DNA from: Actinomycetes bacterium
GTDB lineage: Bacteria > Actinomycetota > Acidimicrobiia > Acidimicrobiales > Ilumatobacteraceae
NCBI GenBank assembly: GCA_025359865.1
Contig: JANYDH010000003.1
Coordinates: 1-64,000 of the forward strand
DNA length: 64,000 nt
Direction of reading: 5' to 3'
Of the stretch, positions 17,895 through 30,088 are shown piece after piece. Position numbers and translations under genes: made by a program. Every line of letters starts with the position of its first letter. The stretch's first letter is position 1. The notes beneath the pieces were generated by a model. The model was not told where the DNA came from, ran no database searches, and saw nothing but the letters and a program-made list of their open reading frames with translations.

Positions 17895-19292
17895 TCAGTG
17901 TCCGCCGAGGGCGCTGGTGTCGACATCGCCGACAGCGAAGAACCCGAGGGCACCCTTGCCGACGTTCGAGAACTTGTGAGTGACGAATGGGTACAGCCCA
18001 TCCTCGGCAAAACTGAACTCTACGAATCCACCCTGGGCCGGCTGCAGGTCGAGCACCTGCGATCCGCCATGGGTTTCGTCGGGCTGCAATTGGTAGGCCC
18101 CTTCTTTGAACACGGTGTCGAAGATGGTCCCGACGATGTGGAATGCCGAGTTCTCGTTGGGACCGTCGTCGACCACCCACATCCGGTACTGCTTGTCGGC
18201 TTCTACATGAAGCGGAGAATGCTTGTACTGGTTGTGGTACCCGTTGAACACCACAGCGTCCCACTTGTTGTCGACCATCTTGGTGAGGTCTCCGGGTTGG
18301 CCGAGCGGGCCGAAGTACAGTTCGCTTTGGATCATCACGAACTCCTTGTCGACCTTGGCTAGGTTCGGCGGATCGATGATGATCGCGCCGTACATCCCGT
18401 TGCCGATGTGATGCAGCGCCGGTGCCGTGCCACAGTGGTACATGAATGCTCCGGCGTAATCGGCAGTGAACTTGTAGACCAGAGACTCGCCGGGCTGGAT
18501 GGTGCGCATCTCATCGCTCCAGGCCACTTTGCTGGCATGAAAGTCGATCGAATGGCCGAGCGTGCCCTTGTTGGTCAGGGTGATCTGGAACGTGTCGCCG
18601 ATCTTGCCATGCAACGTTGGCCCTGGTACCTGATCGTTGAAGGTCCACATCATCTGGGTAACCCCTGGTGCCACTTCGATCAGCTTCTCGGTCGCATCGA
18701 ACGAGATGTCGTGCACGGTGCCCGACTCCTTCGGCGGCAGCACTGGGTCGCGTGGCTTCCAATCGGCGGCCGGAACAGCCGCAGGGTCAAGCGTGGCATT
18801 CGCGGTTGCCGGATCGCCAGAACCGCTGGTCGTGCTCCCGGTCGTTGCGCCATCGTCGCCACCCGCGGTGGCACCGCCAGTGACGTTGATCCTCATCACC
18901 ATCCCGGCCTGCTTGTGTCCGGGAACGGTGCACCACGCCTCGGTCGATGCCTGAAACGGCCCGATCGTGATCGTTTCGTCGGTTCCCGGCGCCAGCGACT
19001 GGGTTCCGCTCGTCCCCTCGACTTTCAGGTCATGAGCCATCGCCCCGGCGTTGCGGACGTGGAGTTGGACGGTCGCGCCTGACGCCACGTCGATGCTCGA
19101 TGGCGTGATGTACAGATCGGCCAACTGCACCTCGATCACCGTGGTGGGCGATGCATCGACGGCGCTTGAATGGCGACCGAATGCGCCCACCACCCCGATG
19201 ACCGCCACGATCAGGGCCATCACCCCGATCACGAATGTGGCGAACCACCAGCCGCTTTGGGGGGCGGCCGACGGTGTGTCTGATGCCTCCAT
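17895..19292 (-). CDS. nirK: Copper nitrite reductase-like protein with N-terminal cupredoxin and membrane anchor
   Basis: A 465-residue membrane-anchored protein. Residues 15-37 are a membrane segment; residues about 50-140 are an extra cupredoxin (AHDLKVEG and AWCTVPGHKQAGM give His, Cys, His, Met). After a Gly/Ser/Thr linker comes a two-domain NirK: GHSIDFHASK holds the catalytic Asp and a type 2 copper His; MYHCGTAPALHHIGNGMYG holds a further His, the type 1 Cys, His and Met; SAFHIVGTIFD holds the second-domain His. All copper ligands and both catalytic residues appear present. It should reduce nitrite to nitric oxide outside the membrane; a non-denitrifying multicopper oxidase role is the alternative. 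AGGAGG six bases before the ATG fixes the start. Confidence 0.85.
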   Translation of the reverse strand: MEASDTPSAAPQSGWWFATFVIGVMALIVAVIGVVGAFGRHSSAVDASPTTVIEVQLADLYITPSSIDVASGATVQLHVRNAGAMAHDLKVEGTSGTQSLAPGTDETITIGPFQASTEAWCTVPGHKQAGMVMRINVTGGATAGGDDGATTGSTTSGSGDPATANATLDPAAVPAADWKPRDPVLPPKESGTVHDISFDATEKLIEVAPGVTQMMWTFNDQVPGPTLHGKIGDTFQITLTNKGTLGHSIDFHASKVAWSDEMRTIQPGESLVYKFTADYAGAFMYHCGTAPALHHIGNGMYGAIIIDPPNLAKVDKEFVMIQSELYFGPLGQPGDLTKMVDNKWDAVVFNGYHNQYKHSPLHVEADKQYRMWVVDDGPNENSAFHIVGTIFDTVFKEGAYQLQPDETHGGSQVLDLQPAQGGFVEFSFAEDGLYPFVTHKFSNVGKGALGFFAVGDVDTSALGGH

Positions 19293-20228: not shown

Positions 20229-20312
20229 CTCACCAGTTTGCCGTTCCACACGGGGTTCCACATCGTCAGCGGCCAGGTGGCCTTGGCCACCGTGGAGACA
20301 TACGATGGAGGC

Positions 20313-21260
20313 ATGGCCGTCGGCGCTCGTCCTCTCGTCCCCTCGCGGCTCGCTCCGGGGGGTGTTGCCCACGCCTCGCGTAGCGTGCCTACCACCCGAG
20401 TGGCAGGGTTCATCGCCCTCACCAAGCCGCGGATCATTGAGCTACTCCTCATCACCACCATCCCCACGATGGTGCTGGCCGAGCTGGGCTGGCCCGCAAC
20501 CAGCCTGGTGCTCGTCACGCTGCTGGGCGGCACGCTCGCTGCCGGTGGGGCCAATGCCATCAACATGGTGATCGATCGAGACATCGACGCGCTCATGGCC
20601 CGCACCCAGGGACGACCGCTCGTGACGGGACTGATCAAGCCGCGCGAGGCGCTCGTGTTTGCGCTGACGCTCGAGGCAGTTGCCTTTGCGGTCCTGTGGG
20701 CCGGCGCCAACCTGTTGTCGGCCGTTTTGGCGCTCAGCGCCACGCTGTTCTACGTCTTCGTCTACACACTGTGGTTGAAGCGAACGAGCACCCAGAACAT
20801 CGTCATCGGCGGTGCGGCGGGCGCGGTCCCGGTGCTTGTCGGCTGGTCGGCCGTCAGCGGTGATGTGAGTTGGTCGGCGGGACTTTTGTTCGTGGTCATC
20901 TTCTTGTGGACGCCGCCACACTTCTGGGCGCTTGCCATCCGTCACGCCGACGAGTACCGGGCGGCGGGCGTGCCGATGATGCCATCGGTCGTCACCATCG
21001 ATGTGGCGGTTCGCAAGATGATCGCCTACACCGTTGCCTTAGTGGCCGCAACGTTGGCCATGATCCCGGTTGCCCACATGGGAATCACGTATGGCGTGTC
21101 GGCGGTCGTGCTCGGAGGGCTCTTCTTGTGGGGCACGATCGACCTGGCCAAACACCCCACCCCACAGCGTTCGATGCGCGTGTTCGGGTACAGCATCAGC
21201 TACATCACGCTGCTGTTCGGCGCACTCACGGTCGACGTGTTCATCCGTCACGGTTTCTGA
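20313..21260 (+). CDS. cyoE: Protohaem IX farnesyltransferase (haem O synthase)
   Basis: Membrane prenyltransferase that turns haem B into haem O, the precursor for haem A of cytochrome c oxidase. About 315 residues with the UbiA-family Asp motif [27 protein letters not shown] at the first helix, and [18 protein letters not shown] in the second Asp-rich loop. Nine or so membrane helices are visible. The ATG at 20313 follows GGAGG very closely; the frame is open further upstream but overlaps the divergent clpS promoter. Its position ahead of the oxidase genes matches its role. Confidence 0.93.
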
Positions 21261-21398: not shown

Positions 21399-23084
21399 AT
21401 GACCACCATTGATCCCCAGGTTGCCGCTGCCGTCGGCACCGCCTCGGCGGCGGGCGAACGCGCCCACGAACGGGCGGGCACCGTTGCGTCGACGCTGGCC
21501 GACTGGCTCACGTCGACGGATCACAAGAAGATCGGCCGACTCTTCGTCGGCACCGCGCTGGTGTTCGGGGTTGCGGTCACCGCCATTGCCGGTCTGCTTG
21601 GCATCGAGCGCATCGATGCCACCGGCAACATCGTCACCACCGATTCGATCCCTCAGTTGTTTTCGTTGTACCGCCTGGTGCTCACCTTTGGTGTGGTCGC
21701 TCCGATCCTGCTCGGCCTCGCCGTGGCAATCGTGCCGCTGCAGTTGGGCGCACGTGCGCTTGCATTCCCCCGCCTAGCCGCGGCCGGGTTCTTCACCTGG
21801 CTCATCGGCACCGGCCTCGTCATCGGCTCCATTGCTGCCAACGGGGGCCCTGGTGGCGGTAGCGCCAAGATGGTCGACCTGTTCTTGGCAGCGCACGTGC
21901 TCGTGGTCGTCGGCCTCGTCGCTGCGGCAACGTCGGTGGCTACGTCGGTGCTCACGACCCGCGCACCCGGCATGAACATGCGTCGGGTACCGCTGTTTGC
22001 CTGGTCGGCCCTCGTCGGGGCCCTCGGGCTGATCCTGATGCTGCCCGTGCTTGCCGGGGCACTCGTGCTGTTGTACCTCGACCACCGTGGAGCACGTACC
22101 ACCTTCGGCGGTAACAACGGAGTCACCACGTGGATCCGGTTCGCCGTCACCCAACCCCAGACATTCGTGTACGTGGTGCCTGCCTTCGGACTCATGATCG
22201 AGGTCATCGCCACAGCGACGCGCTCGCGGCTGAAGTTGCGTGGCGTGGCCCTCATCGGTCTCGGCCTCGTTGGCATTAGTGCATTGGCCGGCGTCTCGCA
22301 GGTGAGCGCTCCGCTGCGGGCCGATTTCCGTCATCTGAACGCCACGCAACTGTTCAACGACCTAGTGCCCTACGCCTTGTTTAACCTGTTGCCGGTTCTG
22401 GGCGCGGTGTTGGTGTTCGCTGTCGGACTGCTGGCGCTTGGTAGCAATCGCCCCAAGATCGGTGCCCCGTTGTTGTTCGGCTTCTTTGGCGGCGGACTGA
22501 TCTTGGTCGGCATGGTGGCCAACGCCGTGTACATGGTCGGAGATGCACAGTTGGCAGGCACCGTGTTCGAGGAGGGTGCCTGGATCGCTGTGTGCTACGG
22601 CGGTGTGCTGGCTGGCCTCGGAGGCGTCTTGTACTGGAGCCCGAAGCTGTGGGGAAGCCGCGCCGGCGACATGCGTTCCATCCCACTGGCACTACTCGGA
22701 GCACTCGGTACTCTGCTTGCCTCGGTGCCGTACTTCGTCGCCGGCTTCGCCAAGCAACCTGACGGCTCGACGATTTTCGACTATTCGGGTCCGCAGAACC
22801 TCTGGAACGGCCTGGCCACTGCTGGTCACGCCCTGATGGTGGTCACGCTCGTCGGGTTCATCGGCATGGCGATCGCCTCATTTACCGGCGACCAGACCAA
22901 GGCCGCTGGCTTCGATCCGCGCGATGGTCACACCCTCGAGTGGGCCGCTGCTTCGCCCGCTCCGGCAGACAACTTCGCCGACATCCACACCGTTGCATCG
23001 GCCGAGCCGATGTTCGATATCCATGCCGATTCGCAGCACAGTTCGGCCCCTGAGCACGCAGCCACCTCCGGAGGAGCCGCCTGA
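21399..23084 (+). CDS. Cytochrome oxidase subunit I paralogue without haem or copper ligands
   Basis: 561-residue polytopic protein that aligns along most of its length with the CtaD encoded at 26112: shared TDHKK(I/L)G, VPLQ(L/I)GAR--AFPR, (T/M)RAPGM and VVPAFG/VLPSFG. Every residue that binds a cofactor is replaced. The helix 2 haem His is Tyr91 (LYRLVL), the CuB His of GHPEVY is Gln252 with the cross-linked Tyr now Phe256 (TQPQTF), the HH pair of helix 7 is lost, and HFHY of helix 10 is replaced by a GAWIAV-type stretch. It can hardly be an oxidase. It starts with an ATG in TTGCACATG and is followed by two genes with coupled or close starts. It may be a structural partner, assembly factor or channel. 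Confidence 0.85.
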   Translation: MTTIDPQVAAAVGTASAAGERAHERAGTVASTLADWLTSTDHKKIGRLFVGTALVFGVAVTAIAGLLGIERIDATGNIVTTDSIPQLFSLYRLVLTFGVVAPILLGLAVAIVPLQLGARALAFPRLAAAGFFTWLIGTGLVIGSIAANGGPGGGSAKMVDLFLAAHVLVVVGLVAAATSVATSVLTTRAPGMNMRRVPLFAWSALVGALGLILMLPVLAGALVLLYLDHRGARTTFGGNNGVTTWIRFAVTQPQTFVYVVPAFGLMIEVIATATRSRLKLRGVALIGLGLVGISALAGVSQVSAPLRADFRHLNATQLFNDLVPYALFNLLPVLGAVLVFAVGLLALGSNRPKIGAPLLFGFFGGGLILVGMVANAVYMVGDAQLAGTVFEEGAWIAVCYGGVLAGLGGVLYWSPKLWGSRAGDMRSIPLALLGALGTLLASVPYFVAGFAKQPDGSTIFDYSGPQNLWNGLATAGHALMVVTLVGFIGMAIASFTGDQTKAAGFDPRDGHTLEWAAASPAPADNFADIHTVASAEPMFDIHADSQHSSAPEHAATSGGAA

Positions 23085-23665
23085 TGTACGCCCTGCCCCC
23101 CGCTCCGGCACCGGCGCCACGCCGTCAACTGTTCGTTGGCACTGCGCTTGCATGCGCGGCCGGCGCCACGATGTACGGCGGCATGCTGGCGCTGTACATG
23201 CGGTTCCGCCAGTCGGTGCTGGCCGCCCCGAACAGCGTGTGGAAACCGAAAGACGTCAAGGTGCCCGAGGTAGCGACCAACATCATGCTGTTGGCGTTCA
23301 TCGGCATCTTCGTCTTCGTGCAGTGGGCTGTCTACGCCGCCCGCCGCGACCACAAGGCGTACACGGTGCTGGCTCTCAGCCTGACCGCACTGCTCGGACT
23401 GGCGGTCATCAACGCTCAGGCCTTCGTGTACCACCAGATGAAGCTCGGTTTGAAGACCGGAACGTACGAGATGTTCTTCTACGGTCTCACGGGCACGTTC
23501 CTCGCCCTCATGATCATCGGGATCGCGTTCAGCATCGTTACAGCGTTCCGTTTCCTCGGCGGTCGTACCGGCGAACGCGAGATCGTCTCAGCCCATGCCA
23601 TCTACTGGTACTTCCTCGGTGCGATCTACTTCGCACTGTGGTTCGTCGTCTACGTCACGAAGTGA
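23084..23665 (+). CDS. Cytochrome oxidase subunit III-like paralogue
   Basis: 193-residue protein with five hydrophobic helices that follows the layout of CtaE (28123) but lacks its conserved polar residues. GSECLLFGGL is replaced by LACAAGATMYGGML, GQVYEF by AQAFVYHQMK, FHGVHV by GTFLALM, and WHFVDIIW by WYFLGAIYF. The ATG overlaps the stop of the subunit I paralogue (TGATG) and GGAGGA precedes it, so translation is coupled. The natural reading is that it pairs with the ligand-less subunit I in a membrane complex. Assignment to the subunit III family is by eye and less certain than for its neighbour. Confidence 0.65.
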   Translation: MYALPPAPAPAPRRQLFVGTALACAAGATMYGGMLALYMRFRQSVLAAPNSVWKPKDVKVPEVATNIMLLAFIGIFVFVQWAVYAARRDHKAYTVLALSLTALLGLAVINAQAFVYHQMKLGLKTGTYEMFFYGLTGTFLALMIIGIAFSIVTAFRFLGGRTGEREIVSAHAIYWYFLGAIYFALWFVVYVTK

Positions 23666-23680
23666 GCAGGTAACACAGGC

Positions 23681-24835
23681 ATGTTCACCACTGGTTCCAA
23701 ACTTTTCCTCGGCGCCACATCGCTGGCCGTCGCCGCGCTTGTCGTGATGGGTGTCACCAATGCCGGCGACATCGGTTGGACAGCCACCGTCGGCTTGATC
23801 GGCGCTGTGGTCGCGCTGGCGTTCCTCACCGGCATCAACTTCTTCGTCCGTGACGGCAACGTGTCGTCGGCCGACCCTGCAAACGTCTTCGACGCCGCAG
23901 CGGCACAACGTCCCCCCGGTCGCAGCATCTGGCCCCTGATCGGCGCTGTCGGCCTCGGACTCATTGTCGTCGGTGCGATCAGTACTCCGGTCGTGTTCAA
24001 AGCCGGTGTGGTCGTGATTCTTGCGGTGATGCTCGAATGGCTGGTGCACGCGTGGAGTGAAGGGGCATCGTCCGACGCCGCCTACAACCAGAGTGTCCGC
24101 CAGCGGTTGATGCATCCACTCGAGTTTCCGGTGCTTGCTGCCGTCGGCCTCACCGTCATGATCTATTCGTTCTCACGGATCATGCTCTTCGTCTCGAAGG
24201 CCGGTAGCCCGGTCGTGTTCGGGGTACTTGCCGCCGTCATCTTGCTCGGCGGCGTCCTCTACGCCTACTCGCCGGGGGTGAAGAAGAGCATCGCCGCCGG
24301 CGTGTGCGTCATCGCCGGGCTCGGCCTTGTCAGCACCGGAGCAGTGATGGCCATCGATGGTCAGCGCGCCACCGAACCACACGAGATCATCGCCAACGAC
24401 TCATCGATCTGCACCAGCAATGAGCCGACCGAAGCCGATGCGCGAGCGTCGCAGGAACTCGCTGCCAAGAGCAACTCCGCAGCCATCATTACGCTCCACG
24501 GCGGCAAGTTGTCTGCACACCAAATAGCAGTTCCCGGCGAATTGAGCACGATTACGCTGCCGCGCAGTGGAGTCTCCAACATCGTATTCGTCAATGACGA
24601 CAGCGCCAAGGTGCGCCTCACCGCACATATGGGTACGTTCGACACCGCAACGATCGTGAACGGTAAGCCGACCACCGCAACCAGCATCACCTGCACGACG
24701 CTGGTGCGCCAGGGCGGTCGGCAGTTACTCACACTCATCTACCCGAAGTCATCGCGTGCCCTCAAGTCAGGCGATGCGTACACCCTGGCGGTGCCCGGTG
24801 TCGAATCGTCGGTCATCACTGTCGTGGTGCCATGA
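23681..24835 (+). CDS. Membrane protein with subunit IV-like hairpin and extracytoplasmic beta domain
   Basis: 384-residue protein with about eight hydrophobic segments up to residue 230, then a 150-residue C-terminal domain predicted to lie outside. The segment SIWPLIGAVGLGLIVVG resembles the helix after SYWPIVLALALPIMG near the end of CtaD and the actinobacterial oxidase subunit IV family. The C-terminal domain is Thr/Val/Ser-rich with two Cys (ICTSN and ITCTTL) and looks beta-rich, perhaps a cupredoxin-like fold without a visible copper set. It lies 15 bp after the subunit III paralogue and three bases before ctaC, so all three paralogues share one transcript with the true oxidase. Confidence 0.55.
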   Translation: MFTTGSKLFLGATSLAVAALVVMGVTNAGDIGWTATVGLIGAVVALAFLTGINFFVRDGNVSSADPANVFDAAAAQRPPGRSIWPLIGAVGLGLIVVGAISTPVVFKAGVVVILAVMLEWLVHAWSEGASSDAAYNQSVRQRLMHPLEFPVLAAVGLTVMIYSFSRIMLFVSKAGSPVVFGVLAAVILLGGVLYAYSPGVKKSIAAGVCVIAGLGLVSTGAVMAIDGQRATEPHEIIANDSSICTSNEPTEADARASQELAAKSNSAAIITLHGGKLSAHQIAVPGELSTITLPRSGVSNIVFVNDDSAKVRLTAHMGTFDTATIVNGKPTTATSITCTTLVRQGGRQLLTLIYPKSSRALKSGDAYTLAVPGVESSVITVVVP

Positions 24836-24838
24836 GTC

Positions 24839-26095
24839 ATGAAGCGGAGCAAATCCAACGTGCCTAGCCTGCAACTCGTGCAACATTCTCCTCGTCATCG
24901 GGGTTGGCTGTTCGGGGCCGTCGGCCTCGCAGCGGCAGCTCTTTCGGGATGTGCCAAGAACGCACCCCAGGACACGTTCGATCCGGCCGGATCGAACGCC
25001 CAAAAGATTCAAGACCTGCAAGTTCCTGTGTTCGTCATCGCCGGGGTCATCGGGGTCATCGTGCTGGCCGCAATCGGTTTTGTCGTCATCCGCTACCGTG
25101 ACCGTGGCCAAGAGATGCCCGAGCAGTCACACGGCAAGCCCTCGCTAGAAATCGCGCTCACCATCTTGCCGGCCCTCATTCTGGCAGGCGTGGGCACCTT
25201 CACCGTCAAGACCATCTTTGAACTGGCCAAGACCGACGACACGCAGTGCATCATCAACGTCACCGGTCAACAGTGGTGGTGGGAGTACGACTACCCGGCC
25301 CAGGACGGCTGTGGTGGTATCAAGGCGCCGATCGTGACGAGCGGTCAACTCGTGATTCCGACCGGTCAAAACGTGCTGTTGCGAATCACCAGTCGCGATG
25401 TCATCCACTCGTATTGGATTCCACGCCTCAACGGAAAGCGTGATGCGGTGCCTGGTCGTGTGCAGACGCTGCGACTCGAAGCCGACCAGCCCGGTATTTA
25501 CGCCGGACAGTGCACGGAGTTCTGTGGGTTGAGTCACGCGAACATGAAGATGGAGGCGGTCGCGTTGTATGCGTCCGACTTCGAAACGTGGAAGGCCAAC
25601 CAGCTCGAGGGCTACACCGCGCCGGTCGATGGCTCCGCGGCGAAGCAGGGCGAGGCGGTGTTCACGGCGAACTGCTCGTACTGCCACCAGGTCAACGATC
25701 TCACCACGACCAACGCTGCGGGCGAGAAGGTGCCGGTGCTCGCCAATCCCGATCAGTACATCGTGTCGGGTGCCGCTCCAAACTTGTCCAACTTGATGAC
25801 GCGCAACACCTTTGCCGGCGCAACGTGGGATCTGCTTACCCCGGCATGTCGCGACAAGGTGTGGAAGGCGGTACCCGAAGCGTTCGGCGCGCTGTATCTC
25901 CAAGGCGTGACCCCGGAGTGCCTGAACCAGGTCGACCTACGCGAATGGTTGCGCAACGCCCCGGCCAAGAAGCCGATGTATTCCAGTGATGCCCAGAAAG
26001 CAAACAGCGGAGGCAAGGTGCGCGGTATGCCCAACCTTGGTCTGAAAGAAGACCAGATCGACCTCATCATTGCGTACCTACTCGAGCGGAACTAA
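24839..26095 (+). CDS. ctaC: Cytochrome c oxidase subunit II fused to cytochrome c
   Basis: 418-residue lipoprotein-like subunit II: signal with LSGC lipobox near residue 38, two membrane helices (about 65-85 and 105-130), and a CuA domain with VIHSYWIP, GQCTEFCGLSHANM supplying His, two Cys, Glu carbonyl, His and Met. After about residue 265 comes a class I cytochrome c domain with CSYCH and a distal Met in VRGMPNLG; the domain carries an unusually long insert of about 80 residues between these. The fused cytochrome accepts electrons from the bc1 complex and passes them to CuA. The start is seven bases after the stop of the preceding paralogue gene. Confidence 0.93.
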   Translation: MKRSKSNVPSLQLVQHSPRHRGWLFGAVGLAAAALSGCAKNAPQDTFDPAGSNAQKIQDLQVPVFVIAGVIGVIVLAAIGFVVIRYRDRGQEMPEQSHGKPSLEIALTILPALILAGVGTFTVKTIFELAKTDDTQCIINVTGQQWWWEYDYPAQDGCGGIKAPIVTSGQLVIPTGQNVLLRITSRDVIHSYWIPRLNGKRDAVPGRVQTLRLEADQPGIYAGQCTEFCGLSHANMKMEAVALYASDFETWKANQLEGYTAPVDGSAAKQGEAVFTANCSYCHQVNDLTTTNAAGEKVPVLANPDQYIVSGAAPNLSNLMTRNTFAGATWDLLTPACRDKVWKAVPEAFGALYLQGVTPECLNQVDLREWLRNAPAKKPMYSSDAQKANSGGKVRGMPNLGLKEDQIDLIIAYLLERN

Positions 26096-26111: not shown

Positions 26112-28130
26112 ATGACCATCATCGAACGTCCTTCGCTCACCCCTGTAGTCGCCGGTTCCGGTGTATCTGTAGGCGTGAAGCCATCCCAGGCCTACGGCTC
26201 ACTTCGTCGCCCTGTCAGCTCCACCGGCTGGCGATCATGGGTGTTCACGGTCGACCACAAGAAGCTCGGCATCATGTACGGCGCCGTAGCGATGTTCTTC
26301 TTCCTTGTCGGCGGAGTCGAGGCGCTACTCATCCGTGCGCAACTCGCCGGGCCCAATGGCACGGTGCTGAGCGCCGGGCTGTACAACGAGATGTTCACGA
26401 TGCATGCCACCACGATGGTGTTCTTGTTCGTCATGCCGATGGCAGCCGGATTCGCGAACTACCTCGTGCCGTTACAGATCGGCGCCCGCGACGTGGCGTT
26501 CCCGCGGATGAACGCGTTCGGGTTCTGGTGCTTCCTGTTCGGCGGGATCTTCCTCAATACGTCATGGGTGCTCGGTGGCGCCGCCGACGGCGGGTGGTTC
26601 ATGTACCAGCCCAATGCGAACGCGTTGTTCTCGCCCAGCCATGGCATCGACTTCTGGGGTCTCGGACTACAGATCACCGGCATTGCGTCACTCACGGGTG
26701 CACTCAATCTGATTGTCACCATCCTCAACATGCGTGCACCCGGCATGAAGCTGATGAAGATGCCGATCTTCACGTGGATGATCCTGGTGGTCCAGTTCCT
26801 CCTCGTGTTCGCTATTCCGGTCATCACCGTCGCGTTGTTCCTGCTCATGTTCCAGCGTGCGTTCGGTGCCACATTCTTCGATGTCGGTGCCGGCGCCGAC
26901 CCATTGCTCTGGCAGCATCTGTTCTGGATCTTCGGTCACCCTGAGGTGTACATCCTCGTCTTGCCCAGCTTCGGGATCGTCAGCGAAGTACTTCCGGTGT
27001 TCAGTCGAAAACCGCTGTTCGGCTACCGATTTGTGGTGTTCTCCGGTGCGGCGATCGGCTTCACGGGTTGGGGTGTCTGGGCCCACCACATGTTCGCGAG
27101 CGGTCTCGGTCCGGTCAGCGTTGCCGTGTTTTCGATGTCGACCATGCTGATCGCGATCCCAACCGGCGTCAAGATCGTCAACTGGACGCTTACCTTGTGG
27201 GGCGGCAAGCTGTGGTTCACCACGGCGATGATGTTTGCGATCGGCCTCATCGTCGAGTTCACCATCGGCGGCCTCTCGGGGGTCACCCATGCGGTCGCCC
27301 CAAGCGACACGCAGCAGACAGACACGTATTACATCGTCGCCCACTTCCACTACGTCATCTTCGGTGGAGCGGTTCTTGGGATTTTTTCCGGGTTCTACTA
27401 CTGGTGGCCGAAGATCTTCGGTAAGCGGCTGAGCGAAAAGATCGGCAAGTGGAACTTCTGGGTGACGATCATCGGGATGAACCTCACGTTCGGGCCGATG
27501 CACATCATCGGACTCCAGGGACAGCCTCGTCGAATGATGAACTGGACAGAAGCCCGCGCCGGTGAGGGCTTCTTCAACCTCGGCTTCTGGAACCGAGTTT
27601 CGTCAAGCGGTGCATTCATCCTGGCCTGCGGTGTGGGTCTGTTCCTGATCAACGTGATCGTCACCACACGAAAGGCCGAGAAGGCGCCGCTCGACCCGTG
27701 GGATGCACGCAGTCTCGAATGGATGACGTCGAGCCCGCCGAAAGAACACAACTTCGATTCCATCCCGGTGGTTCATTCTCTCGACGAGTTCTTCCATCGC
27801 AAGTACGAGGAGAATCATGAGACCGGCGAGCTCACCAAGGTCGCCACGGCCGAGGAAGTGCTAGCCGACCTCGAAGCTCACGCCGACGCGCATATCCACA
27901 TGCCGTCGCCGTCGTATTGGCCGATCGTGTTGGCGCTCGCATTACCGATCATGGGCTACGGCATCATCTTCAGTCGGATCCTGATCGTGGTCGGCGGATT
28001 GCTCGTCCTACTGTCAATGTTCGCCTGGACCCTCGAGCCTTCGGTGGCCGACGATACCGATTACGATCCGCCGGGCGACCCACGAGCCGACGACGGTGGC
28101 CCTACGAAGGAGCTCGCTACCCATGTCTGA
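26112..28130 (+). CDS. ctaD: Cytochrome c oxidase subunit I
   Basis: 672-residue catalytic subunit of an aa3-type oxidase. All ligands are present: haem a His in TMHATTMVF, CuB His and the cross-linked Tyr in GHPEVYIL, the CuB pair in WAHHMF, and the two haem His in AHFHYVIFGG. K-channel and D-channel regions look normal. After residue about 560 there is a C-terminal extension with two further helices (YWPIVLALALPIMGYG), seen in many actinobacterial and chloroflexal forms. The ATG at 26112 is preceded by GGAGAGAAC. It overlaps ctaE by eight bases. Confidence 0.96.
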   Translation: MTIIERPSLTPVVAGSGVSVGVKPSQAYGSLRRPVSSTGWRSWVFTVDHKKLGIMYGAVAMFFFLVGGVEALLIRAQLAGPNGTVLSAGLYNEMFTMHATTMVFLFVMPMAAGFANYLVPLQIGARDVAFPRMNAFGFWCFLFGGIFLNTSWVLGGAADGGWFMYQPNANALFSPSHGIDFWGLGLQITGIASLTGALNLIVTILNMRAPGMKLMKMPIFTWMILVVQFLLVFAIPVITVALFLLMFQRAFGATFFDVGAGADPLLWQHLFWIFGHPEVYILVLPSFGIVSEVLPVFSRKPLFGYRFVVFSGAAIGFTGWGVWAHHMFASGLGPVSVAVFSMSTMLIAIPTGVKIVNWTLTLWGGKLWFTTAMMFAIGLIVEFTIGGLSGVTHAVAPSDTQQTDTYYIVAHFHYVIFGGAVLGIFSGFYYWWPKIFGKRLSEKIGKWNFWVTIIGMNLTFGPMHIIGLQGQPRRMMNWTEARAGEGFFNLGFWNRVSSSGAFILACGVGLFLINVIVTTRKAEKAPLDPWDARSLEWMTSSPPKEHNFDSIPVVHSLDEFFHRKYEENHETGELTKVATAEEVLADLEAHADAHIHMPSPSYWPIVLALALPIMGYGIIFSRILIVVGGLLVLLSMFAWTLEPSVADDTDYDPPGDPRADDGGPTKELATHV

Positions 28131-28785
28131 TCTTGCTCTGCAACCCACGCAAGCCAGCGAGGACGTCCACGCTGCGGGCCATGATGATCACGGCAGTCAC
28201 GATGACCACGGTCTCGTCCACGCCACATCGACCGGGCTGAGTAACAACAAATTGGGGATGTGGCTGTTCTTGGGCAGCGAGTGTTTGCTCTTCGGCGGCC
28301 TCATCTCCACGTACATGTTGTACCGCGGCCGTCACTCTGCGAATCTCGGCCCTGACCAGATCTACGACATCCCATTCACCTCGGTCAGCAGCTTCGTGTT
28401 GCTGATGAGCTCGCTGACGATGGTGCTCGCTGTCACGTCGGCGCAACGCCGCGATGAACGCCGAATGAACCTGTGGCTCACTATCACCGCACTGCTCGGT
28501 GCCACGTTTGTCGGAGGTCAGGTATACGAGTTCACCTCGTTTTACCACGAGGGCCTTGGGTTCACGACAAGCTTGTTCGGGTCGAGCTTCTACACACTTA
28601 CTGGATTCCACGGTGTGCACGTCACCGTCGGCATCATCATGTTGATGGCGCTCGTCGGGATCAACAAGCGCGGCCGCATCCCCGGTGACCGGGCCGAAGT
28701 CGTCGAGCTGGTGGGGCTGTACTGGCACTTCGTCGACATCATCTGGATCCTCATCTTCACCCTCGTTTACCTGATCCCATCATGA
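28123..28785 (+). CDS. ctaE: Cytochrome c oxidase subunit III
   Basis: 220-residue membrane subunit with a His/Asp-rich N-terminal tail (residues 16-32), then five helices with conserved FLGSECLLFGGL, VGGQVYEF, GFHGVHVTVG and YWHFVDIIWI. These polar residues, lost in the paralogue at 23084, mark it as the functional subunit. The ATG at 28123 lies inside the end of ctaD and has AAGGAG upstream. It overlaps ctaF by four bases. The His-rich tail may buffer copper or zinc; that is a guess. Confidence 0.95.
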   Translation: MSDLALQPTQASEDVHAAGHDDHGSHDDHGLVHATSTGLSNNKLGMWLFLGSECLLFGGLISTYMLYRGRHSANLGPDQIYDIPFTSVSSFVLLMSSLTMVLAVTSAQRRDERRMNLWLTITALLGATFVGGQVYEFTSFYHEGLGFTTSLFGSSFYTLTGFHGVHVTVGIIMLMALVGINKRGRIPGDRAEVVELVGLYWHFVDIIWILIFTLVYLIPS

Positions 28786-29120
28786 GCGCGACCACCGAGC
28801 ATCTCGAACGCGCTGGCCACGATTCGGACGGCCACGACTACGTCGAACATCATCCCGACAGCTTCTATGTCAAGATCGCATTGGCGCTTGCGCTGCTCAC
28901 GGGGCTCGAAGTCACGCTCACCTACGTCGATATCGGTGCGTTGTTCTTGCCGCTCCTGCTCACCTTGATGGTGATCAAGTTCTTCATGGTCGTGTTGTTC
29001 TTCATGCACTTGAAGTTCGACAGCAAGTGGTTCAGTTTCTTGTTCTACACGGGACTCGGGCTTGCGGTGGGGGTTTACCTTGCCTTTCTCGCCACGTTCC
29101 GATTCTTCATGTCGAGTTAG
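28782..29120 (+). CDS. ctaF: Cytochrome c oxidase subunit IV
   Basis: 112-residue small subunit with three helices and the family pattern VIKFFMVVLFFMHLKFDSKW. The N-terminal 28 residues are His/Asp-rich, like those of CtaE. The start overlaps the ctaE stop (ATGA). It stabilises the oxidase complex in related bacteria. Confidence 0.9.
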   Translation: MSATTEHLERAGHDSDGHDYVEHHPDSFYVKIALALALLTGLEVTLTYVDIGALFLPLLLTLMVIKFFMVVLFFMHLKFDSKWFSFLFYTGLGLAVGVYLAFLATFRFFMSS

Positions 29121-29134
29121 GTTTGGAGCGGCCC

Positions 29135-30088
29135 ATGTTTGCCCAATTTGCCACTATCGGCGTTGCGGATCCGTGGAAGTTCCAGCCGCACCCCGAGGTC
29201 TGGGCGCTAGTCGTGTTCCTCATCGGCGCCTACATTTACATGATTCGGGTGATCGGGCCTCGCGCAGTGCCCGTCGGGCAGTTAGCCGTCTCACATCGAC
29301 AGGTGGCGGCGTTCGTCGGAGCGATCGCCCTACTGTGGTTCGGGGCCGACTGGCCGGTGCACGATATTGGCGAGAACTACCTCTACTCGGTGCACATGTT
29401 TCAGCACATGATCTTCAGCTACTTCGTTCCGCCGCTGGCGTTGATGGCTACTCCTGAGTGGATGTGGAGGGCGCTTGTCGGCACTGGCCGGTTCTACCGA
29501 GTGACGTCAAAGTTGGCGAAGCCCATCGTTGCCGGTGTCATCTTCAACGTCGTGGTGATGGTTACCCACGTGCCGGGAGTTGTCAATGCCGCTACAACCA
29601 ACGGACCGCTGCACTACACGCTGCACCTGTTGGTGATGCTCACCGCAATGCTGATGTGGGTACCGGTGGTCGGACCGTTCAAGGAATGGCAGATCGGTGC
29701 CGGGGCAAAGTCGATCTACTTGTTCTTGATGAGTGTGGTTCCAACGGTGCCGGCAGCGTGGCTCACGTTTGCCGAGGGAACCGTGTATTCCCACTATCGC
29801 CAGCCCGTGCGGGTATGGGGGCTCACTGTCACCAACGACCAGCAATTGGCTGGCGCGATCATGAAGATCTTCGGCGGTTTGTACCTCTGGAGCATCGTCA
29901 TCTTCTTGTTCTTCAAACGGTTCGGTCACGGTGATGAGATGGAGAACTCGTACATGCACCCTGACCGCGTTGATACGTTGGCAGCGTTGGAAGATGCTCA
30001 AGAGACGCTGACCTACGAGCAGGTAGCCGAGGCGTTCGAGCGCAGCGCGCCGGCGTTAGTCGAATCGAAACAGGCGCCGAGCGAGTAG
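29135..30088 (+). CDS. ctaG: Cytochrome c oxidase assembly protein, CtaG (caa3) family
   Basis: 317-residue membrane protein with about seven helices. Family features are the His-rich MFQHMIFSYFVPPLAL, VTHVPGVVNAA and LHLLVMLTAMLMWVPVVGP, and the SHYRQPVRVWGLT-NDQQLAG region. It is needed for oxidase assembly in Gram-positive bacteria, probably through copper insertion. GGAG six bases before the ATG at 29135 fixes the start. It closes the oxidase operon; its last 33 bases overlap the convergent ABC permease gene. Confidence 0.92.
   Translation: MFAQFATIGVADPWKFQPHPEVWALVVFLIGAYIYMIRVIGPRAVPVGQLAVSHRQVAAFVGAIALLWFGADWPVHDIGENYLYSVHMFQHMIFSYFVPPLALMATPEWMWRALVGTGRFYRVTSKLAKPIVAGVIFNVVVMVTHVPGVVNAATTNGPLHYTLHLLVMLTAMLMWVPVVGPFKEWQIGAGAKSIYLFLMSVVPTVPAAWLTFAEGTVYSHYRQPVRVWGLTVTNDQQLAGAIMKIFGGLYLWSIVIFLFFKRFGHGDEMENSYMHPDRVDTLAALEDAQETLTYEQVAEAFERSAPALVESKQAPSE

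Follow-up and report, generated by a model that had tools for sequence, protein, structure and literature searches.

We report a three-gene module in an actinobacterial genome (family Ilumatobacteraceae, order Acidimicrobiales) that, in the explanation we favour, encodes a complete, redox-dead membrane core of an oxidase, made up of degenerate counterparts of subunits I, III and IV (I', III' and IV') with a dead cupredoxin domain and no subunit II. The module occupies positions 21399-24835 of the window, by which we mean the whole analyzed stretch of 64,000 nucleotides, and is followed by the genes of a genuine caa3-type oxidase. An earlier note on this DNA had singled out the first of the three genes as a subunit I paralogue without cofactor ligands; the present results add that both following genes are degenerate oxidase parts as well and that relatives of the module keep some of the ligands.

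The haem-copper superfamily is usually defined by its ligands, and here a whole order keeps a cofactor-free core beside the real oxidase. The order-wide conservation of this ligand-free module suggests that the oxidase fold here serves a function different from electron transfer. Together with the graded loss in living relatives (CuB in all of them, and variously the haem a3 His, type-1 copper and haem a), the cofactor-free core makes a role of the oxidase membrane core apart from electron transfer testable. Searches of the open-access literature yielded no earlier account of a module of this kind. A published classifier throws out subunit I sequences that do not have six His ligands (PMC3084760), and this rule, which screens such proteins out of the surveys applying it, may explain why the module was overlooked.

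Loss of cofactor ligands in pseudo-subunit I

The gene at 21399-23084 (+ strand; pseudo-subunit I, I') encodes 561 amino acids in an open and unbroken frame, intact as had been claimed. The protein matches the Pfam COX1 family (PF00115) over residues 44-473 with E=1e-28, and scores 159.4 bits against NCBIfam CtaD_CoxA (TIGR02891), under the equivalog cut-off of 670.75 bits. We read the ligand columns from a multiple alignment in which the neighbouring CtaD served as the map and, as a second and independent reading, from a profile-profile alignment (E=3e-80, 544 columns); the register was the same in both. In both alignments the two His ligands of haem a are replaced by Tyr91 and Ile396, the haem a3 His by Ala394, and the three CuB His by Gln252, Gln301 and Val302, which bears out the claim that all six haem and copper ligands are lost. 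The alignment also places Phe256 at the position of the cross-linked Tyr, Gln254 at that of Glu278 (Paracoccus numbering), Ala120 at that of the D-channel Asp, and Ala and Val at those of the K-channel Thr and Lys. Since neither an HH pair in the TM7 zone nor an HxH in the TM10 zone occurs in any of the 79 orthologues without the haem pair, the losses are not a product of alignment shift; this result and the profile-profile alignment rule out that the ligands have moved to shifted positions.

Like subunit I of the caa3 and aa3 oxidases (A-type, PF00115), pseudo-subunit I has the homologous COX1 fold with 12 transmembrane helices (TM) over its whole length, and it shares with them the motifs TDHKK-G, VPLQ-GAR-AFPR, RAPGM and LEW-SP-P-NF. 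Unlike them, it has none of the six His, no cross-linked Tyr, neither D nor K channel, and no subunit II of its own. We consequently treat the module, which has the oxygen-reductase fold and fails its defining features, as a variant and not a member of the oxygen reductases. The AlphaFold model (pLDDT 92, pTM 0.92) gave TM scores of 0.75-0.81 in a Foldseek comparison with solved subunits I of bo3, aa3 and caa3, so that the predicted structure retains the COX1 fold despite the loss of the cofactor sites, in agreement with the earlier expectation of a preserved fold.

Substitutions in the K channel were also seen in subunit I proteins with a full set of ligands: in two loci (L079, 7710-9611, - strand; L112, 191-2833, - strand) the Thr and Lys positions are Ser and Gln.

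The three-gene module in the caa3 operon

The gene for pseudo-subunit III (III', CtaE-like) at 23084-23665 (+) starts with an ATG that overlaps the stop codon of pseudo-subunit I (TGATG). Its product matches Pfam COX3 (4e-7) and is homologous to actinobacterial CtaE (subunit III), yet its match to NCBIfam CtaE (1e-10) is well under the cut-off. The gene at 23084, which the note had proposed for joint structure prediction, thus proves to belong to this module as a subunit III-like component.

The third gene, P5 (23681-24835, +), has no significant Pfam match and no match to a curated family. A hidden Markov model (HMM) built from its orthologues matches the small CtaF open reading frames located behind ordinary aa3 ctaD genes. 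In the P5 model seven TM helices are predicted with little confidence (mean pLDDT 68), and a beta domain is predicted better; the top structural matches of this domain in Foldseek are cupredoxins. From the HMM, the model and Foldseek, P5 comprises four CtaF/subunit IV-like TM helices, three further TM helices and a periplasmic domain of cupredoxin fold; its N-terminal half is homologous to actinobacterial CtaF (subunit IV), from which it differs by the fused 3-TM cupredoxin unit. The type-1 copper ligands (His-Cys-His-Met) are absent from the alignment of the window protein and its family. Two cysteines of the copper-free domain, Cys244 and Cys338, are invariant within the window's family and probably form a disulfide.

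The module is preceded by ctaB (20307-21260, start approximate, +), the haem O synthase of the UbiA family (Pfam UbiA, 1e-63), whose position is conserved as the upstream neighbour of the module in nearly all loci. Downstream, 3 nt past P5, starts ctaC (24839-26095, +), encoding a genuine subunit II with a CuA domain and the fused cytochrome c of the caa3 type (CoxB, above the NCBIfam cut-off). It is followed by ctaD (26112-28130, +), a genuine subunit I by Pfam and NCBIfam that keeps every ligand in the alignment and is the sole true COX1 of the genome; ctaE (28123-28785, +), a genuine subunit III (Pfam COX3, 2e-19); ctaF (28782-29120, +), the small subunit IV of caa3 (Pfam COX4_pro, 1e-9); and ctaG (29126-30088, start approximate, +), a caa3 assembly factor (Pfam Caa3_CtaG, 7e-37). 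The genes from pseudo-subunit I through ctaF overlap or are 3-16 nt apart. Inside the module no subunit II gene was found, either in the window annotation or in the compared loci. The order ctaB-I'-III'-P5-ctaC-ctaD-ctaE-ctaF-ctaG recurs in essentially all loci examined.

This arrangement bears on whether I'-III'-P5 could be a transient maturation platform, acting in the insertion of haem A or CuB into CtaD or in the joining of CtaE and CtaF and staying outside the final oxidase. Such a role would fit a module that is always directly downstream of ctaB and in one operon with ctaG, keeps its III-like and IV-like partners, and has a conserved cytoplasmic face. We consider it rather unlikely: the module has no conserved metal-binding or haem-handling motif, and the order's own ctaG sits beside it. 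The known assembly factors CtaG, CtaA and Surf1 are of unrelated fold, which also counts against this reading.

Close upstream of the oxidase operon, the window contains a gene on the opposite strand (17895-19292, -) whose product combines a cupredoxin part at its N terminus with a domain resembling copper nitrite reductase (TIGR02376, 4e-46, below the cut-off).

Distribution in the order and the phylum

A profile search detected pseudo-subunit I, at 438 bits or more, in at least 150 of the 347 genomes of the order; these genomes span about two dozen families. The earlier note had asked to look in related genomes for orthologues that share the losses and the neighbours; they occur throughout the order, and a recent or single-genome oddity is rejected. 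In 65 further, low-scoring genomes a caa3-type ctaD either adjoins the module or lies where the contig ends, and none of these genomes with only an ordinary aa3 oxidase was seen to have the module. Five apparent cases of caa3 without the module (G190, G291, G722, G668 and G655) did not hold up, as the module is present in two and the others are cut by contig ends.

The module is missing from the caa3 operons of the phylum's other classes. Near ctaG these operons have a standalone gene for a 3-TM cupredoxin that matches the second half of P5, from about residue 135, and P5 therefore looks like a fusion of CtaF and such a TM-cupredoxin. The standalone protein has the same three TM helices and a type-1 copper domain; it differs from P5 in being separate, in having intact copper ligands and in having no degenerate COX1 nearby. 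Full-length P5 was not found outside the order among 397 genomes of the phylum. In the loci L145-L164 of other classes, the standalone protein encoded downstream of ctaE or ctaG is a candidate membrane-bound electron donor to caa3.

A link to the bcc-aa3 supercomplex would call for full-length actinobacterial QcrB alongside the module, and this pairing fails in many module genomes, which have only a short b6-type cytochrome b. We also rejected the possibility that the module is a relic of an ordinary bcc-aa3 oxidase, because its clade falls outside the ordinary aa3 group in both trees and many carriers are without actinobacterial QcrB. A connection to an ACIII-oxidase supercomplex (ActC/ActF) was discarded likewise, the NrfD-like proteins being patchy among module genomes. 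The short b6-type cytochrome b was seen on contigs C60 and C37 of genome G000 and in other carriers; genomes of the order that possess aa3 alone have the full-length actinobacterial QcrB, and some genomes have both types of cytochrome b.

Evolutionary history and partly liganded relatives

The degenerate subunit I proteins form one clade with 100% SH-aLRT support, in which partly liganded lineages are basal. The best explanation is a single origin of the module, when oxidase genes were duplicated close to the root of the order; a horizontal patchwork is disfavoured by the single clade and the constant gene order.

Ligands were tallied in the 105 distinct modules with a complete P5. The CuB triad is present in none, and 100 of the 105 have no His at any CuB position. 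The haem a pair is accompanied by the a3 His and type-1 copper in nine modules and by type-1 copper in 12, and stands alone in another nine; the remaining 75, the window included, have neither haem pair nor copper. The copper domain is thus confined to 21 modules, each of which also has the haem a pair, and is missing from all 75 that lack the pair. In the basal relatives this domain resembles amicyanin and auracyanin; in many families the cupredoxin domain is deleted. The tree calls for at least about four losses of haem a. The nested pattern suggests that ligands disappeared in the order CuB, a3, type-1 copper, haem a. We do not count the co-loss of copper and haem as independent evidence, since it is nested and an independent-pairs test of the coupling was not significant, with about three and four changes on the tree.

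Representatives with haem a ligands intact and no CuB, some also with the a3 His, are encoded in loci L084 (4902-8136), L078 (11551-14927), L111 (10055-13405) and L177-L195; beside each CuB-less COX1 lies a CtaF to which a type-1 copper domain resembling amicyanin is fused. Such a pair is possibly a new redox complex, and relatives that have haem a and blue copper but lack CuB would by themselves constitute a redox complex of a new type.

Relatives with both the haem a ligands and the a3 His are potential binders of O2, NO or CO; this capacity, together with the near-perfect linkage to caa3, would fit a redox or gas sensor or another regulator of the caa3 branch. We regard this as most improbable: haem ligands are missing from the window protein and from most relatives, and the loci showed no signalling domain, either fused or adjacent.

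Selection and conservation

Pairwise dN/dS (NG86) was 0.085-0.29 for pseudo-subunit I, 0.05-0.30 for pseudo-subunit III, 0.11-0.35 for P5 and 0.04-0.14 for CtaD, the CtaD pair of the window and L003 being omitted because the L003 ctaD frame is broken. By this measure of the coding sequences the module is under purifying selection, and a pseudogene or neutral drift is rejected. Neither of the findings that the earlier note had named as fatal appeared: the His ligands do not lie in shifted positions, and the gene is not absent from relatives with dN/dS near 1. Its proposal that the gene has been kept for another role gains support from these ratios and from the order-wide orthologues with the same losses.

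The module might still be a decaying relic, important only where haem a and type-1 copper are kept. Ligand loss has been stepwise and repeated, evolution is fast, and the cupredoxin deletions point the same way. We find this highly improbable, because the ligand-free lineages show the low dN/dS given above and, in the examined loci, full-length open frames, while synteny is invariant across families and the fold is predicted with high confidence. In locus L003 (14567-16674) ctaD is split across two frames and the adjoining pseudo-subunit I is intact; the split probably stems from a misassembly, the genome being metagenome-assembled.

We expressed conservation in pseudo-subunit I as a ratio to that in CtaD from the same genomes, with topology assigned by COX1 homology. 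The best-kept regions are cytoplasmic loop 2 (0.87) and the C-terminal tail (0.84), followed by loop 4 (0.76), TM3 (0.74) and TM5 (0.71). The least-kept are TM7-TM9 and periplasmic loops 5, 7 and 9 (0.37-0.49), the site of the binuclear centre and of subunit II docking. Conserved polar residues in the membrane are few: Gln252 (73%), Gln301 (75%), Arg92 (71%), Asp/Glu268 and Asn470.

The 12-TM fold and these residues, in particular the two glutamines in the old CuB site with Arg92 and Asp/Glu268, would be compatible with the emptied haem/CuB cavity serving as a conduit for protons, cations or a solute. We judge this very unlikely: the D- and K-channel residues are gone, no continuous conserved polar path was seen, Gln252 and Gln301 are not kept in every family, and, relative to CtaD, the poorest conservation of all helices is in TM6-TM11.

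A proposed partner of the caa3 oxidase

The explanation that we favour, with middling confidence, is a partner of caa3 derived from a redox side complex. The ancestor would have been a side complex of the caa3 oxidase in which electrons passed from type-1 copper, in place of CuA, to haem a; it would not have reduced oxygen, because CuB is absent in all members. In most lineages, the window included, the cofactors would then have been lost, leaving a structural or assembly partner of caa3. It could, for example, form with CtaCDEF a hetero-assembly whose catalytically inactive half is the module itself; the real oxidase would be held or matured through the module's conserved cytoplasmic face and its TM1-TM5 portion. 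We infer a physical association with caa3 from operon linkage and co-occurrence in genome sequences, and a lasting structural role of the ligand-free module, the reading we rank first, is in our view about as likely as not.

This explanation draws on the invariant operon order, the tight gene spacing and the co-occurrence with caa3, on the purifying selection, the high-confidence predicted fold and the single clade with its partly liganded base, and on conservation that is highest in the cytoplasmic loops and tail and lowest around the binuclear centre and the subunit II docking site. Against it, other classes run caa3 without the module, which is therefore not needed for caa3 generally, pseudo-subunit I evolves roughly 1.5-4 times faster than CtaD in most pairs, and the tightly coupled losses of copper and haem are nested rather than independent. 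The earlier note had listed scaffold, assembly factor, sensor, proton or ion path, and partner of the true oxidase without choosing among them. The strict caa3 link, the lost polar paths and the lost docking face for subunit II would favour partner, scaffold or assembly and disfavour the proton or ion path. More tentatively, a cofactor-free I'-III'-IV' complex that is an obligate partner of caa3 throughout the order, and that descends, by way of intermediates that still survive, from a CuB-less complex transferring electrons from type-1 copper to haem a, in itself an enzyme type not yet described, may be a third function to which the haem-copper oxidase fold has been turned.

A parallel is offered by mitochondrial complex III, whose core proteins derive from peptidases and are dead paralogues kept in a respiratory complex. 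The likeness lies in a dead catalytic paralogue retained in or near a respiratory complex; the difference is that in the present case duplication and loss of the cofactors affected the oxidase's entire membrane core.
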